The notes beneath the pieces were generated by a model. That model saw nothing but the letters and a program-made list of their open reading frames with translations, was not told where the DNA came from and did no database searches. From Bacteroidota bacterium (lineage in GTDB: Bacteria; Bacteroidota; Bacteroidia; Chitinophagales; LD1), in the NCBI GenBank assembly GCA_018267355.1, contig JAFDYP010000379.1, forward strand, positions 1 through 14,251: a DNA stretch of 14,251 nt, written 5' to 3'. Positions 8,231-14,083 of the stretch are shown piece by piece. Each line of letters begins with the position of its first letter. Position 1 is the stretch's first letter. The position numbers and the translations under genes were made by a program.

Positions 8231-8920
8231 TTATGCTTTCTGAAAGAGGGAGGCGATACCGAAGGCGGCACCTGCGGCCAGGGCACCGATGACCATTGTA
8301 TTGAGCGCACCTTTGAAAGGAGGCTGGCCCGTGACGCGGCTCTTGATATAGCCAAAAACGAGTAATGCGGCCAGTGTCACGATCACGGATACGATCAGCG
8401 CCATATGTACATCTGACATGATCAGGTAGGGGAGCAGCGGTATGAGCCCGCCGGCTATGTATGACGCTCCGATAGTCAGGGCGCTATTGCGGGCACGGTT
8501 GGCACTCGGCTGCTCCAATCCCAGCTCATAGCGCATCATAAAGTCCACGTATTTCCTCTTATCCTTAGATAGCTCATCTACTATACGGTCCTGCACATCC
8601 TCTGCTATACCATAGTGCGCAAAGATCTCTTTGACCTCCGCGCGCTCCTTCTCGGGGAATGCATCTACCTCATAATACTCACGTGCTTCCTCTGATTTAT
8701 AGTGCTCCAGCTCAGTACGGCCGGACAGGTAGCCACCCAGGCCCATGGCTATACTGCCTGCTGCTATCTCTGCTATGCCTGCGGTGACGATGATATGCGT
8801 AGAGTCTACCGCGCCACTCAGGCCCGCAGCCAGCGCAAAGGGCACCGTAAGGCCATCGGCCATGCCTATCACTATATCACGGACCAGGTCGGAGCTCTCA
8901 AAGTGTTTTTCCTCATGCAT
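8231..8920 (-). CDS. VIT1/CCC1-family iron/manganese transporter
   Basis: A 229-aa membrane protein of the VIT/CCC1 family, proton-coupled Fe2+/Mn2+ (or other divalent metal) exporters. Five hydrophobic segments are visible. TM1 holds DIVIGMADGLTVPFALAAGL, with the conserved Asp22. TM2 holds AEIAAGSIAMGLGGYLSGR, with Met59. A cytoplasmic charged domain follows (about 68-140): EEAREYYEVDAFPEKERAEV and MMRYELGLE, the Met/Glu cluster corresponding to the metal-binding helices of plant VIT1. TM3-5 follow at 145-168, 172-194 and 203-226. ATG 8920-8918 gives MHEEKHF, a family-like N-terminus; an upstream TTG (8929-8927) would add three residues and is less likely. TATCATTG at 8952-8945 is a one-mismatch -7 candidate. 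The regulatory palindrome at 8966-8977 lies upstream and may also affect this gene. Confidence 0.92.
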   Translation of the reverse strand: MHEEKHFESSDLVRDIVIGMADGLTVPFALAAGLSGAVDSTHIIVTAGIAEIAAGSIAMGLGGYLSGRTELEHYKSEEAREYYEVDAFPEKERAEVKEIFAHYGIAEDVQDRIVDELSKDKRKYVDFMMRYELGLEQPSANRARNSALTIGASYIAGGLIPLLPYLIMSDVHMALIVSVIVTLAALLVFGYIKSRVTGQPPFKGALNTMVIGALAAGAAFGIASLFQKA

Positions 8921-8965
8921 GCGGTGCAAATTAGGATTTAATCACAATGATAGGAAACCCGGTGC

Positions 8966-8977
8966 TGACAAAAGTCA
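8966..8977. promoter_or_regulatory. Crp/Fnr-type palindrome TGACAAAAGTCA upstream of DUF2892-ccoI
   Basis: TGAC-AAAA-GTCA has the TGA-N6-TCA layout of Crp/Fnr-family sites (compare FNR TTGAT-N4-ATCAA). It begins exactly 85 nt before the ATG at 9051 and 57 nt before a -7-like CACCTTTG at 9023-9030. The same layout recurs upstream of ccoS. The divergent VIT gene could also be controlled, since the site lies 13 bp from its -7 candidate. Confidence 0.6.
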
Positions 8978-9022
8978 TATGGACCTCTAATGGCGCTCAC
9001 ACATTTGCTCTCCGCCAGTCGC

Positions 9023-9030
9023 CACCTTTG
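9023..9030 (+). promoter_or_regulatory. Candidate -7 promoter element for DUF2892-ccoI
   Basis: CACCTTTG matches TAnnTTTG except for C at the first position and ends 20 nt before ATG 9051. There is no TTTG at the normal -33 spacing (a TTTG at 9004-9007 is only 15 nt away), which would fit an activator-dependent promoter. Confidence 0.5.
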
Positions 9031-9050
9031 TGTCACTAAAACTAAAAGTC

Positions 9051-9251
9051 ATGAAAAAGAACATTGGCGCATTTGATGGAGTATTTCGTATGATCCTCGG
9101 ATTTCTATTCCTCGCCTATGGCATCCTCGCAGGTCCATGGTGGATCGCTCTTTTCTCTCTGATACCATTTGTCACAGCGGCGCTCTTCTACTGCCCGCTG
9201 TATGATCTGGTAGGTGTGAGCACCTGTGACGAAAGCGAGGTACAGCAATAG
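9051..9251 (+). CDS. DUF2892/YgaP-like inner-membrane protein, 66 aa
   Basis: A 66-aa protein with two membrane helices, MKKNIGAFDGVFRMILGF through CPLYDLVGVSTCDE. The pattern GAFDGVFRMILGFLFLAYG, then WWIALFSLIPFVTAALFYCPLY, with a final GVSTC, is that of the DUF2892 family (the membrane part of the YgaP rhodanese). Cys48 and Cys59 are the conserved-type cysteines of this family. The biological role is unknown. It is the first gene of an operon with ccoI, 2 nt before it, so it may assist metal delivery or the redox state in cbb3 maturation. ATG 9051 is preferred: the frame is open to GTG 9030, but this would overlap the -7 candidate. Confidence 0.85.
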   Translation: MKKNIGAFDGVFRMILGFLFLAYGILAGPWWIALFSLIPFVTAALFYCPLYDLVGVSTCDESEVQQ

Positions 9252-9253
9252 TC

Positions 9254-11674
9254 ATGTCTACAGCTACCTACAGCCTGGCTGGTAGTCAGGCTGTCTGCTA
9301 TCACTGCGGGGAGCCGTGTGAGGCTGATAGTCTCGTCTATGACGACAAGCCATTCTGCTGTGCCGGGTGCAAGACAGTCTATGAGCTGCTCGCGGGCAAT
9401 GATCTGAGCTGCTACTATGACCTGAATGCCAAACCCGGTACCGCCCAAAAGGCAGGCCGCAGCCGCGTGAGATATGACTGGCTGGATGATCCGCAGGCCG
9501 CCTCAAAGCTCATCCAATACACGGATGATGAGATCGCTATAGCCAGCTTCAAGATCCCCACTATCCACTGCAGCTCTTGTATATACCTGCTGGAGAATGT
9601 GTACAGGCTACAGCCTGGCATAGTCCGGTCTCAGGTAGACTTTGTGCACAAGACGCTGCGCCTGACCTTTCGCAAGAAAGATATATCCTTGCGCCAGGCC
9701 GTAGAGCTGATAGCTAGCCTGGGGTATGAGCCGCAGCTCACGCTGAATGACCTGGAGGCTAAGACCACGTCATCATCCAATCGCTCTTATTACCTCAAAA
9801 TCGGGGTAGCATTTTTTGCCTTTGGCAATATCATGCTGCTCAGTTTCCCGGAATACCTCGGCATCGACGCACTGAGCGAGACCCCGCTGCGCCGTTTCTT
9901 TGGCTACCTCAATTTCCTCTTGTCGCTGCCGGTCATACTCTACAGTGCCCGGGAGTTCTTTCAGTCAGCGTATGGCGCCCTGCGCCAGCGCTCTACTAAT
10001 ATGGATATACCCATAGCGCTGGGTATGATCGTTATGTTTCTGCGCAGTAGCTATGATATTTTTATGCTGCAGGGTGCGGGCTACATGGACACGCTGGCCA
10101 GCCTCACCCTGCTGATGCTGATAGGCAGGCTCTTTCAGAATAAAACCTATGCTACCCTCGCCTTTGACCGGGATTATAAATCCTACTTCCCGGTAGCGGT
10201 CACCGTATCCCGTGATGGGCATGAGGCCAGCATACCGCTCTCGGGCCTGACCATAGGAGATGAGATCATAGTACGCAATGAGGAGCTGATACCTGCAGAC
10301 TCTATCCTCCTGGCGGGTGAGGCCATGATAGATTATAGCTTTGTGACCGGAGAGTCCATACCTGTGCCCAAGAAGGCCGGGGATATGATCTATGCCGGCG
10401 GCAAGCAAACCGGCAGCACCATCTCTATGACCGTGGTGAAAGACGTTTCGCATTCCTACCTGACCCAGCTGTGGAATGATGATGCCTTTAAGGGCGCAGC
10501 AGAGCCCGGTACCATATCACTGGCCAACCAGGTGAGCAGGTACTTCACGCCGGCGGTTTTGCTCATAGCCATAGTAGCCGGAGCGTACTGGGCGCGCACT
10601 GATATGCACCGGGCCATGAATGCATTTACTGCCGTGCTGATCATCACCTGTCCATGTGCACTGGCGCTATCGGCTCCTTTTACACTGGGCAATGCCATAC
10701 GCATCCTGGCAAAGTATGGCATCTACCTCAAGAACACTGCGGTGATAGAAAAGATCACGACCATACGCTCCATCATATTTGATAAAACGGGGACACTGAC
10801 AGACAAAAATGGCCGGCATATCAGCTATGCCGGAGATACGCTCTCTTTTGAAGAGCAGATATATGTCGCTTCCCTCACATATCACTCCTCGCATCCACTC
10901 AGCCGTAAGGTCTACCAATACCTGTCTGAAGTGCCGACTATGCTGGTTTCTGATTTTCGCGAGGTGCAGGGCCAGGGGATAGAGGGACTGGTGGAGCAGC
11001 ATAGGGTACGGGTTGGTTCGGCAGCCTTTGCCGGCGGTCCGCCAGCAGATACTGATCATCCTCAGGCATCTGCAGTACATATATCTATAGACGGTATCTA
11101 CCGGGGGCGATATGACATCCGCAATGAATACCGCACCGGGCTGAACGGCCTGATACAGACGTTGCGTTCCCATTTTGATCTCTATGTGCTCTCCGGAGAT
11201 AATGATCGGGAGAAAGAAAACCTGCGGCAGATCATCCCTGCAGATCACCTGATGTTTGACCAGCAGCCTGCAGACAAGCTCTGCTTTATCAAACAGCTGC
11301 AGGAGAAACATACCGGCAAGGTAATGATGATAGGAGACGGACTGAATGATGCCGGTGCCCTGCGCCAGAGCGATGTGGGCCTGGTGGTGTCTGACGATAC
11401 CAATAATTTCTCCCCTGCCTGCGATGCGATCATAGATGCCAGGAGATTTGAAGGCATAGACCATCTGATCAGTTATTCTGGAGATGCCATGCGCATCATC
11501 AAGGTCAGCTATGGCATATCGCTTCTATATAATATAGCAGGTATGTACCTGGCGGTGCAGGGCGATATGAGTCCGCTGGTAGCGGCGGTCCTGATGCCGA
11601 TCAGCAGTATTACTATTATCAGTTTTTCCACCTTTTTATCATGGACAGCAGCACGGAGAAGGCATTTGATTTAG
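9254..11674 (+). CDS. ccoI: CcoI (FixI) copper-transporting P1B-type ATPase
   Basis: An 806-aa heavy-metal P-type ATPase of the CcoI/FixI group, which exports Cu+ across the inner membrane for assembly of the CuB centre of cbb3 oxidase. The cysteine-rich N-terminus has CYHCGEPC (15-22) and FCCAGC (34-39), typical of CcoI-type proteins. An HMA-like domain has HCSSC (105-109). Eight membrane helices are expected, the first pair near 180-235. P-type motifs are all intact: TGES (365-368), the ion-binding CPC in TCPCALALSAP (466-468), phosphorylated Asp510 in DKTGTLT, the HP of SSHPLS (547-548) and GDGLND (694-699). The last helices carry YN (759-760) and MSP (772-774). Start ATG 9254 is 2 nt after the DUF2892 stop. 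The next genes ccoS-ccoNO-ccoQ complete the oxidase locus, which supports CcoI over a generic CopA. Confidence 0.95.
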   Translation: MSTATYSLAGSQAVCYHCGEPCEADSLVYDDKPFCCAGCKTVYELLAGNDLSCYYDLNAKPGTAQKAGRSRVRYDWLDDPQAASKLIQYTDDEIAIASFKIPTIHCSSCIYLLENVYRLQPGIVRSQVDFVHKTLRLTFRKKDISLRQAVELIASLGYEPQLTLNDLEAKTTSSSNRSYYLKIGVAFFAFGNIMLLSFPEYLGIDALSETPLRRFFGYLNFLLSLPVILYSAREFFQSAYGALRQRSTNMDIPIALGMIVMFLRSSYDIFMLQGAGYMDTLASLTLLMLIGRLFQNKTYATLAFDRDYKSYFPVAVTVSRDGHEASIPLSGLTIGDEIIVRNEELIPADSILLAGEAMIDYSFVTGESIPVPKKAGDMIYAGGKQTGSTISMTVVKDVSHSYLTQLWNDDAFKGAAEPGTISLANQVSRYFTPAVLLIAIVAGAYWARTDMHRAMNAFTAVLIITCPCALALSAPFTLGNAIRILAKYGIYLKNTAVIEKITTIRSIIFDKTGTLTDKNGRHISYAGDTLSFEEQIYVASLTYHSSHPLSRKVYQYLSEVPTMLVSDFREVQGQGIEGLVEQHRVRVGSAAFAGGPPADTDHPQASAVHISIDGIYRGRYDIRNEYRTGLNGLIQTLRSHFDLYVLSGDNDREKENLRQIIPADHLMFDQQPADKLCFIKQLQEKHTGKVMMIGDGLNDAGALRQSDVGLVVSDDTNNFSPACDAIIDARRFEGIDHLISYSGDAMRIIKVSYGISLLYNIAGMYLAVQGDMSPLVAAVLMPISSITIISFSTFLSWTAARRRHLI

Positions 11675-11692
11675 CAGTTTGCGTCAAAATCA

Positions 11693-11704
11693 TGACAAAC
11701 GTCA
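11693..11704. promoter_or_regulatory. Crp/Fnr-type palindrome TGACAAACGTCA upstream of ccoS
   Basis: TGAC-AAAC-GTCA has the same TGA-N6-TCA layout as the site at 8966-8977, starts exactly 85 nt before the ccoS ATG and 57 nt before TACATTTG at 11750. It is 18 nt past the ccoI stop codon, in the only real gap (103 bp) between ccoI and ccoS. An upstream GTCA at 11683-11686 gives a second, overlapping inverted repeat (GTCA-N6-TGAC). Confidence 0.6.
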
Positions 11705-11749
11705 GGCTTATCGTTGCCTACGGTCATAAATCTGCCTTCGGCCACCCTC

Positions 11750-11757
11750 TACATTTG
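11750..11757 (+). promoter_or_regulatory. -7 promoter element of the ccoS-ccoNO-ccoQ operon
   Basis: TACATTTG is an exact match to the Bacteroidota TAnnTTTG -7 consensus, ending 20 nt before the ccoS ATG. No TTTG is present at the expected -33 position, consistent with activation from the upstream palindrome. Confidence 0.65.
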
Positions 11758-11777
11758 CTACCGCTAATCACCCAAAA

Positions 11778-11957
11778 ATGAGCGTACTCTTTGTATTAAT
11801 ATCCGCCTGCCTGCTGATGGCACTGCTCTTCCTCCTCGCCTTCATATGGAGCGTGAAGCAAGGCCAGTATGACGACGACTATACACCTGCAGTGCGCATA
11901 CTTTTTGACGACACGACCAGATCAGATTCATCCAATAAAACAAATCCAGAAAAATGA
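11778..11957 (+). CDS. ccoS: cbb3-type oxidase assembly protein CcoS
   Basis: A 59-aa single-pass inner-membrane protein. Helix residues are about 3-24 (VLFVLISACLLMALLFLLAF), followed by the family-typical IWSVKQGQYDDDYTPAVRIL. CcoS is required for cofactor incorporation in the cbb3 oxidase; in Rhodobacter loss gives an inactive enzyme. After the conserved core the tail (FDDTTRSDSSNKTNPEK) is polar and variable. The stop codon overlaps the start of the next gene in ATGA (11954-11957), so translation of the two is coupled. It follows a -7 element by 20 nt and no ribosome-binding motif is evident, as usual in this phylum. Confidence 0.93.
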   Translation: MSVLFVLISACLLMALLFLLAFIWSVKQGQYDDDYTPAVRILFDDTTRSDSSNKTNPEK

Positions 11958-14083
11958 CGGTAGAAACTTTTAAGTATGACAACAGGTGGGTGCGCAACTT
12001 TGCTTTTGCGTCTTTCCTGTGGGGCTTTGTAGGGATGCTGGTAGGGCTGATCATAGCCTTGCAGCTCGTTTTCCCACAGCTCAATTTCGTAGAGTGGACC
12101 ACCTTTGGCCGGCTCCGCCCACTGCATACCAATGCGGTGATCTTTGCCTTTGTAGGTAATGGTATCTTTATGGGGGTCTACTACTCCCTGCAGCGCCTGC
12201 TCAAGGCGCGTATGTGGAGTGATGCACTCTCGGCCATCCACTTCTGGGGCTGGCAGCTCATCATCGTAGCGGCAGCCATCACACTGCCTCTCGGCATCAC
12301 AGCCGGCAAGGAGTATGCAGAGCTGGAGTGGCCTATAGATATCGCTATCACACTCATCTGGGTGGTTTTCGGTATCAATATGTTTGCTACTATCCTGACC
12401 CGCAGGGAGCGCCACCTGTATGTAGCGATCTGGTTTTATATAGCTACGTGGATCACAGTGGCCATGCTCCATATTGTCAATTCATTTGAGCTGCCTATCT
12501 CAGCCTTCAAGAGCTACTCTCTCTACGCCGGAGTGCAAGATGCGCTGGTGCAGTGGTGGTACGGGCACAATGCGGTGGCATTCTTCCTCACTACGCCATA
12601 TCTGGGCCTGATGTACTACTTCCTGCCCAAAGCAGCTAACCGCCCGGTATATTCTTATCGCCTTTCCATCATCCACTTCTGGGCGCTGATCTTCCTCTAT
12701 ATCTGGGCGGGTCCTCACCACCTGCTGTACACAGCGCTGCCAGACTGGGCTCAATCTCTGGGTACTGTCTTCTCAGTGATGCTCATAGCCCCATCATGGG
12801 GGGGGATGATCAATGGCCTCCTGACCCTGCGTGGTGCATGGGACAAGGTACGCGAAGATCCGGTTCTGAAATTTATGGTGGTAGCTGTGACTGCATATGG
12901 TATGGCTACCTTTGAGGGGCCACTGCTCTCTATCAAAAGCGTAAATGCGATCTCCCACTATACAGACTGGACTATCGCTCACGTACACGTAGGCGCCCTC
13001 GGTTGGAATGGCTTCCTGACCTTTGGTATCCTCTACTGGCTGGTACCGCGCCTGTACAATACAAAACTCTTCAGCATACGCCTGGCCAATGCACACTTCT
13101 GGCTCGGTACGCTAGGCATCCTCTTCTATGCTATCCCTATGTACTGGGGTGGTATCTATCAGAGCCTGATGTGGAAGCAGTTTACTGCGGAAGGAATCCT
13201 GAAGTATCCTAACTTCCTGGAAACTGTCAGCTACCTGCGTCCATTCTATATGGCGCGCGCTCTCGGCGGCCTGCTATACCTCACTGGTACCACGGTAGGT
13301 ATCTACAACCTCTTTAAGACTGCTGCACAGGGCAAGTTTGTAGCAGAAGAGGAGGCATCAGCTCCGGCACTGGAGAAGGACTATACTCCTCACGGTTCAG
13401 AAGGCTGGCACAGAGTGATAGAAAGAAGGCCGGTACAAATGCTCATCTTCAGCTTTATAGTGGTGGCCATAGGTGGTATCATAGAGTTTGTACCGACCTT
13501 CCTCATAGAGTCAAATGTGCCCTCTATAGCCAGTGTGAAACCATATACTCCGCTGGAGCTGCATGGCCGTGATATCTATATCCGCGAGGGCTGCTACAAC
13601 TGCCACTCACAGATGATCCGCCCATTCCGCAGCGAGACTGAGCGCTATGGTGAGTACAGCAAGGCTGGTGAGTTTGTATATGATCACCCATTCCAGTTTG
13701 GCTCCAAGAGGACCGGCCCGGACCTGCAGCGCGAAGGCGGCAAATATCCTGATAGCTGGCACTATAACCACATGCTGGATCCGACCATCATGAGCCCCGG
13801 CTCTATCATGCCTGCCTACCCGCACATCATAGACCATGACCTGGATACGACCTACACCGCTGCCAAGATCAAGGCCATGCAGATGCTGGGCGTACCCTAT
13901 CCTAAAGGCTATGAGACCGTAGCCGGTACAGACCTCGTGAAGCAGCAGGCTACCATCCAGGCGAGCCTGGCCAAAGACGGTATCAAAGTGGCAAAGAATA
14001 AAGAGATCATAGCCCTGATAGCCTATCTGCAGCGCCTGGGTCATGACATCAAAATGAATCCTCAGACTGCAGCACAAAATTAA
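11954..14083 (+). CDS. ccoNO: Fused cbb3-type cytochrome c oxidase subunits I and II (CcoN-CcoO)
   Basis: A 709-aa fusion of CcoN (about residues 1-465) and CcoO (about 490-709), the catalytic core of the high-affinity cbb3 oxidase that reduces O2 and pumps protons at the inner membrane. In CcoN, His58 (LRPLHTN) fits a low-spin haem b ligand, His205 (WWYGHNAVAF) and His255-His256 (AGPHHLLYT) fit CuB, Tyr249 (FLYIWAG) fits the cross-linked Tyr by its 44-residue spacing from His205, and His343/His345 (TIAHVHVGALGW) ligate haems. After a linker (about 455-495) and a helix (496-517), CcoO carries the c-haem motif CYNCH (547-551) with SQMIRPF, GPDLQREGGKYPDSWHYNHM, and Met619 in SIMPAYP as likely axial ligand. 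This fusion is common in Bacteroidota. Start overlaps ccoS; the frame is intact. Confidence 0.96.
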   Translation: MTVETFKYDNRWVRNFAFASFLWGFVGMLVGLIIALQLVFPQLNFVEWTTFGRLRPLHTNAVIFAFVGNGIFMGVYYSLQRLLKARMWSDALSAIHFWGWQLIIVAAAITLPLGITAGKEYAELEWPIDIAITLIWVVFGINMFATILTRRERHLYVAIWFYIATWITVAMLHIVNSFELPISAFKSYSLYAGVQDALVQWWYGHNAVAFFLTTPYLGLMYYFLPKAANRPVYSYRLSIIHFWALIFLYIWAGPHHLLYTALPDWAQSLGTVFSVMLIAPSWGGMINGLLTLRGAWDKVREDPVLKFMVVAVTAYGMATFEGPLLSIKSVNAISHYTDWTIAHVHVGALGWNGFLTFGILYWLVPRLYNTKLFSIRLANAHFWLGTLGILFYAIPMYWGGIYQSLMWKQFTAEGILKYPNFLETVSYLRPFYMARALGGLLYLTGTTVGIYNLFKTAAQGKFVAEEEASAPALEKDYTPHGSEGWHRVIERRPVQMLIFSFIVVAIGGIIEFVPTFLIESNVPSIASVKPYTPLELHGRDIYIREGCYNCHSQMIRPFRSETERYGEYSKAGEFVYDHPFQFGSKRTGPDLQREGGKYPDSWHYNHMLDPTIMSPGSIMPAYPHIIDHDLDTTYTAAKIKAMQMLGVPYPKGYETVAGTDLVKQQATIQASLAKDGIKVAKNKEIIALIAYLQRLGHDIKMNPQTAAQN

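Follow-up and report, generated by a model that had tools for sequence, protein, structure and literature searches.

Why do two neighbouring operons for cytochrome cbb3 oxidase in a Bacteroidota bacterium carry the same palindrome at the same distance from their start codons, and which protein reads it? The operons, which contain ccoI and ccoNO and whose promoters are called P1 and P2 here, lie in a window of 14,251 bases that is an entire contig (G000:C309) of an assembly 77% complete, referred to below as the own genome; G, C and L are our handles for genomes, contigs and loci. The shared palindrome and spacing before both operons are real. We put a probability of roughly 0.7, as judged from sequence comparisons, on P1 and P2 being members of a class-wide low-oxygen regulon with tandem Crp/Fnr-type sites, whose reader in the genus is most likely a receiver-cNMP-HTH_Crp fusion protein.

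In primary promoters of Bacteroidetes, a -7 element TAnnTTTG is preceded by TTTG at -33, with a spacing of 19-21 bp. Direct reading of the plus strand located a distal palindrome, a predicted Crp/Fnr-type dimer site, at 8966..8977 in P1 (TGACAAAAGTCA) and at 11693..11704 in P2 (TGACAAACGTCA), and -7 elements of the TAnnTTTG class at 9023..9030 (CACCTTTG) and 11750..11757 (TACATTTG), respectively. The match to TAnnTTTG is exact in P2, and CACCTTTG has C for the first T. In both promoters the palindrome starts 85 nucleotides (nt) before the ATG (9051 in P1, 11778 in P2) and 57 nt before the -7 element, from which another 20 nt lead to the ATG. No TTTG was present 19-21 nt 5' of the -7 element in P1 or P2. 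All the positions and distances given by an earlier, sequence-only reading of the window were thus correct, as was its statement that neither promoter has a -33 TTTG at the usual spacing. Its prediction of a common Crp/Fnr-type operator for both operons also holds up, the TGA-N6-TCA dyad being perfect in both distal sites and conserved in relatives. It may be noted that P1 contains an additional TTTG at 9004, 15 nt from the -7 element, which is absent in the L007, G002 and G006 promoters. CACATTTG at 9000 was ruled out as the P1 -7 element, as L007 is without it; ACCTTTG at 9024-9030 is conserved instead.

The same reading had assumed one palindrome per promoter and so overlooked a second site. 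A grammar scan placed a degenerate proximal site of P1, TAATGGCGCTCA, at 8988..8999 (+), 22 bp 3' of the distal one; its P2 counterpart, TGCCTACGGTCA, at 11715..11726 (+), has the same spacing. If transcription starts 6-7 nt after the TTTG, as the earlier reading estimated, the distal site is centred near -65, a position that our analysis supports, and the proximal site near -43, close to the expected position of the -33 box. The conserved unit that emerges from the alignments and scans is TGAC-N4-GTCA-N10-TGA-N6-TCA-N23-TAnnTTTG, i.e., a pair of dyads together with the -7 element. Within the window, TGACAAANGTCA occurs twice exactly and nine times (the two exact copies included) when up to two mismatches are allowed; shuffled sequence gave 2.96 on average. 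In a scan with the full grammar, which tolerated up to three mismatches over its 16 core bases, P1 and P2 were the only matches, with one mismatch each.

Conservation of the sites was examined in close relatives and in the genus. The P1 palindrome is kept in all three close relatives, with one centre base changed in L006, and that of P2 is identical in all three. The interval from palindrome to start codon (GTG for ccoS in L006) is free of gaps in all four aligned sequences, for P1 and P2 alike, and the ACCTTTG of the P1 -7 element is invariant across four. At the genus level, the six ccoI promoters compared all retain the TCA half of the proximal site and a TTTG at offset 61 from the palindrome start, and the six ccoS promoters all retain the GTCA half and a TAnnTTTG at offset 57. 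The TTTG at offset 61 was found in 16/16 ccoI-, ccoS- and usp-type sites of a hand-chosen genus set, in agreement with the earlier suggestion that the TAnnTTTG promoter class is in use; among chosen sites from other families it was found in 6 of 11. An exact TTTG is missing from four MBL-operon sites of the genus; at 57-64, three of these have TACTTTCG or TACATTCG in a count made by eye. When the respiratory promoters of the genus were aligned on the palindrome, a TCA appeared exactly 31-33 nt 3' of it, corresponding to the 3' half of another TGA-N6-TCA centred 22 bp from the first. Many other copies of TGACAAANGTCA in the genus genomes have no second dyad, and some of these are inside genes.

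Patterns were then counted against their reversed forms as control. The loose TGAC-N4-GTCA, with which the earlier reading had advised scanning the genome, behaved like noise in the own genome (65 matches versus 70 for the reversed pattern) and is thereby ruled out as a genome-wide signal. The A-rich TGACAAANGTCA was enriched in the genus (58 versus 10; seven genomes); in 13 other relatives the exact form gave 29 versus 32 and is ruled out as a signal beyond the genus. The composite TGAC-N4-GTCA-N10-T-N8-TCA gave 65 matches versus 5 in 20 genomes, a site with two perfect dyads being scored twice.

To this was added a scan of the gap between dyads, made without gene selection. With the gap left open from 0 to 30, 60 genomes of the order yielded 71 matches versus 25 over all gaps (two sites being scored on both strands); a gap of 10, i.e., 22 bp centre to centre, accounted for 32 of the 71, and every other gap for at most 5. 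Across 198 genomes of the phylum (gaps 4-16), the gap was 10 in 9/15 matches of the order and 12/25 of the rest of the class; in the other classes it was 10 in only 4/45, gaps of 9 and 12 being the commonest (10 and 9 matches). The distance to the promoter was equally constrained. With the spacer to TTTG left open (12-42 nt), the 395 genomes searched in the class yielded 128 matches, spread over 86 of them, and the reversed pattern yielded zero; sites with two TTTGs were scored twice, and six off-peak matches are near-copies of one G539 repeat. The spacer was 27 nt in 70 of the 128 and 28 nt in 10, other lengths occurring at most 4 times each. The base at offset 58, which was outside the query, is A in 80% of these 70 class-wide sites; hence, the element is TAnnTTTG. 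These patterns are strict, so that TGAT variants of the distal site escape them, and the genomes are mostly drafts. The G539 repeat starts with TGACAATTGTCAACA or a near-copy, is dispersed over six places and mimics a tandem site; it is likely a mobile repeat and counting noise. With a relaxed grammar (up to two mismatches, with two of four additional bases required), 25 named cco loci gave 23 matches in 14 loci versus none for the control, and 11 of the 25 had no match. The matching loci include a Saprospiraceae bacterium (no mismatch) and, with one or two mismatches, Spirosoma sp., Flavobacterium sp. SUN052 and Raineya orbicola. The architecture, which the earlier reading described for two operons, extends beyond these operons and this genome.

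The target of each of the 70 class-wide sites was called as the first gene within 400 nt recognised by one of 13 queries. This was ccoS or ccoNO for 21 sites and ccoI for five; these 26 bear out the link to respiration proposed earlier. A sixth gene so labelled, at L339, encodes a different P-type ATPase, with 27% identity. Six sites had a Usp-like gene first (24-27% identity to a protein named Usp by eye), two a PAS kinase and one a pyruvate-ferredoxin-oxidoreductase-like gene (by eye). At two sites the first gene was small and conserved; one of these, L304, is also among three further sites (with L313 and L314) from which a PAS kinase is reached, past a small gene, within 530 nt. Among ten downstream genes searched against Pfam were those for a ScdA/hemerythrin protein, an iron-sulphur protein, a D-2-hydroxyacid dehydrogenase, NadA, an acetyl-CoA hydrolase/transferase, a homogentisate dioxygenase and a baeRF-family protein; three had no match. 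Tandem sites before homogentisate dioxygenase, at L341 (by Pfam) and L247:2769-2802 (by resemblance only), are odd for a low-oxygen regulon, the enzyme being oxygen-consuming. In the own genome, the grammar with up to two mismatches gave ten matches versus none for the control, in loci that had been pre-fetched by motif, so that the number is no census. These sites precede ccoI, ccoS, an MBL-kinase-receiver operon, a lipoprotein-like gene, a CoA-transferase gene and a gene for an unknown secreted protein; a site at the end of contig C290 matches the usp sites of relatives.

The MBL-kinase-receiver operon led to a candidate regulator. In G003 and G004, an operon of the order MBL (beta-CASP), PAS histidine kinase and receiver-cNMP-HTH_Crp lies about 12-18 kb from ccoI, and G006 has its kinase gene in divergent orientation to P1. 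Contig C348 of the own genome holds a tandem site (TGACTTTTGTCA-N10-TGATACGCATCA), the MBL gene, the kinase gene and the regulator's receiver portion, confirmed by domain, before the contig ends; the regulator was missed in the domain search of the own genome because its gene is cut there. Receiver and Crp parts form one polypeptide, in which PF00072, PF00027 and PF13545 all score above cut-off (G006 copy), and the adjacent kinase carries PAS_9, HisKA and HATPase domains (G006 copy). Among the matches listed, 120 relatives of 346-354 residues have the same three domains, and any names they bear are generic. No cysteine-rich N-terminus of the [4Fe-4S] type was seen in seven aligned fusions. The regulator lies near cco genes in G001, G003, G004, G005, G006 and G008, and at least 28 of 87 matches are within 20 kb of it, counting genomes with the regulator among those listed. 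Such a fusion, working with a histidine kinase, is a likelier reader than the plain Fnr/Crp paralogue suggested from the sequence alone. As to the first gene of the operon, a beta-CASP metallo-hydrolase at L242:2402-3805 (G000:C348), its best NCBIfam match is a CRISPR Cas14 beta-CASP model at 366 against a cut-off of 800; this score is far too low to be evidence for CRISPR.

Could the palindrome and its spacing be a product of chance? The loose motif, being as frequent as its reversed control in the own genome, would allow it, but under chance the sites should not be conserved and the spacer histograms should be flat. The opposite was seen: relatives conserve the sites, both spacers peak sharply, the full grammar has a reversed control of zero and the same genes recur. 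The probability of this explanation is negligible. It is quite improbable, too, that the distal palindrome is the sole regulator site and the proximal half part of the promoter itself, for instance a modified -33 box. The proximal site is admittedly degenerate in both P1 and P2, with five of the six core bases of TGA-N6-TCA, a point that tells against tandem sites, and only its TCA half is firmly conserved. In the regulator operon, however, both halves of the proximal palindrome are complete (TGATACGCATCA; TGACCAGCGTCA in G005), and pairs of TGA-N6-TCA peak sharply at 22 bp in the 60 genomes. Moreover, L249:8585-8640 (G031) and L250:2911-2966 (G029) each have a row of three Crp/Fnr-type sites at 22-bp intervals 5' of genes, suggesting that more than two dimers may bind next to one another.

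A third explanation, which we consider unlikely, is that the reader of the tandem sites is a different Crp/Fnr protein, for example a cysteine-rich oxygen-sensing Fnr or a 203-residue Crp of G004, and that the fusion is merely a neighbour. Genes for Crp/Fnr proteins that lack a receiver and have CxxC...C...C at the N-terminus lie near tandem sites and usp-like or cco genes in G039, G048, G051 and G063 (L256:13885-14592, L243:8505-9218, L257:6324-7121, L251:5038-5739). The recognition helix E-[ST]-x-I-R is common to them, the fusion and the 203-residue Crp, and since the last has it, the helix is not specific to the fusion. Against this, the fusion is the strongest cNMP-domain match in G001, G003, G005 and G006 and the second in G004, and a tandem site stands on its operon in G003, G004 and, with a truncated gene, the own genome. 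The only uninterrupted cNMP-domain match in the own genome, as far as its 77% assembly goes, is an HTH_Crp_2 gene on C141 (L005), which was set aside as regulator, its helix REAISR being different; a gene with a similar score seems present in G007, of unproven orthology, and G007 shows no tandem sites. The C141 gene is followed by YgaP-like, rhodanese-like and thioredoxin-like genes (by eye; L005:1060-2859), so that a second YgaP-like gene is found, here beside a Crp-type regulator. The 203-residue Crp gene (L111 / L129, G004:C74:82149-85412) adjoins a cytochrome c gene and a gene resembling nosZ by eye, and a tandem-type site lies near it at G004:C74:81926.

Besides these receiver-less proteins, several observations weigh against a class-wide regulon read by the fusion. 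For 32 of the 70 class-wide sites no gene was matched by the 13 queries. The 203-residue Crp outscores the fusion in the G004 domain search, the Crp gene near the site in G309 is a 232-residue frame, and in G002 (73% complete) sites are present but the domain search found no receiver-Crp protein. Strong regulator matches occur without any strict-pattern match in G032, G034 and G045, and the Crp part occurs likewise in most of 127 other genomes. In favour of the fusion, a match to this Crp part (E<=1e-45) was found in 51 of the 58 genomes with the 27-nt grammar versus 127 of 337 others (Fisher p 2.8e-13; 5.6e-14 and 3.4e-9 at cut-offs 1e-38 and 1e-50), in a test that ignores shared ancestry and the frequent residence of regulator and targets in one locus, with a query that left the receiver out.

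In the mechanism that we propose, two activator dimers would sit side by side on sites 22 bp apart, i.e., two helical turns and the same face of the helix. The distal dimer near -65, on the better-matching site, would act in a class I-like manner and stabilise the weak proximal dimer, and the latter, near -43, may replace the -33 box and contact polymerase in a class II-like manner, as the geometry suggests. The pair would recruit RNA polymerase with the primary sigma factor at TAnnTTTG, with TTTG 27 nt after the second site. The receiver-cNMP-HTH_Crp fusion may be switched by the adjacent PAS histidine kinase, and it is probably autoregulated, given the strong tandem site on its own operon. 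Binding, activation, cooperativity and phosphorylation are steps that we infer, as is a low-oxygen or redox signal, the last because of the target genes. More tentatively, at a little less than even odds, the code of two and sometimes three dimers, on sites set 22 bp apart at a constant distance from the -7 element and in place of the -33 box, may be a constant, class-wide microaerobic one whose readers are swapped, a phospho-switched receiver-Crp in some cases and a cysteine-rich direct sensor in others. If true, a single DNA grammar would serve two modes of oxygen sensing.

As regards the operons themselves, the presence of ccoI and ccoNO stood as read earlier, and the first genes differ, a YgaP-like gene preceding ccoI and ccoS preceding the fused ccoNO. 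All are on the plus strand: the YgaP-like transmembrane protein (PF11127, by domain match) at 9051..9251 and ccoI, a heavy-metal P-type ATPase of cbb3 maturation, at 9254..11674 in the P1 operon; ccoS (FixS, PF03597, by domain match) at 11778..11957 and ccoNO, the fused oxidase subunits I/II (PRK14485, above cut-off), at 11954..14083 in the P2 operon. TIGR01525 scores 321 bits on ccoI against a cut-off of 346, and the name is given because of the position of the locus. The nearest named relatives of the genome are the uncultured Bacteroidetes SZAS-56 (ccoI 97% identical), UBA1941 (86%) and SZAS-59 (89%). A minus-strand gene at window 8231-8929, whose open reading frame starts 37 nt from the P1 palindrome, is divergent from P1; its product, we presume, resembles a VIT1-type metal transporter.

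How does this arrangement compare with known systems? CRP and FNR of E. coli activate from -61.5 (class I) and -41.5 (class II), and the centres near -65 and -43 predicted here are similar. An adjacent dimer pair 22 bp apart as a fixed rule is different, as is the promoter core; to our knowledge, E. coli has no such rule for two adjacent dimers. The -7 element is that of the Bacteroidetes primary promoter, whereas the -33 TTTG is missing and the proximal site lies just 5' of its position. Unlike the FNR iron-sulphur sensor, the seven aligned fusions are without a cysteine-rich N-terminus.

For the phylum itself, the word TAnnTTTG occurs in PMC9723704, which describes induction of cbb3 under oxygen limitation and has no word beginning Fnr or Crp in its main text. 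The part of PMC8510549 available makes no mention of Bacteroidota, Bacteroidetes, Chlorobi, TGAC, tandem or receiver domain, and the open-access literature, so far as its accessible portions go, yielded no defined operator or regulator for the high-affinity respiration switch of Bacteroidota. Bacteroidota are abundant in soil, water and guts, and the grammar bears on how they switch on high-affinity respiration; it predicts transcription starts, regulon members and regulator from sequence.

The closest parallel is the alphaproteobacterial FixL-FixJ-FixK/FnrN system, which, in the parts available of two accounts, exerts low-oxygen control over fixNOQP and fixGHIS through the site TTGAT-N4-ATCAA, with autoregulation, and in which a response regulator, FixJ or FxkR, is separate from the Crp/Fnr protein FixK (PMC7888657, PMC4999443). 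Here, too, the predicted system pairs a histidine kinase with a Crp/Fnr-family activator and acts chiefly on genes for the structure and maturation of cbb3, and a PAS sensor kinase and a receiver protein are found near cbb3 genes. From the portion of the text available, fixNOQP has a single anaerobox at -33/-34 and fnrN has two, at -34 and -2 (PMC7888657); unlike fixNOQP, P1 and P2 have two activating-type sites 22 bp apart before TAnnTTTG, and, unlike FixJ and FixK, receiver and Crp reside in one protein. The locus would offer a clear example of a promoter activated with its -33 box missing, and of the FixJ-FixK cascade merged into one protein.

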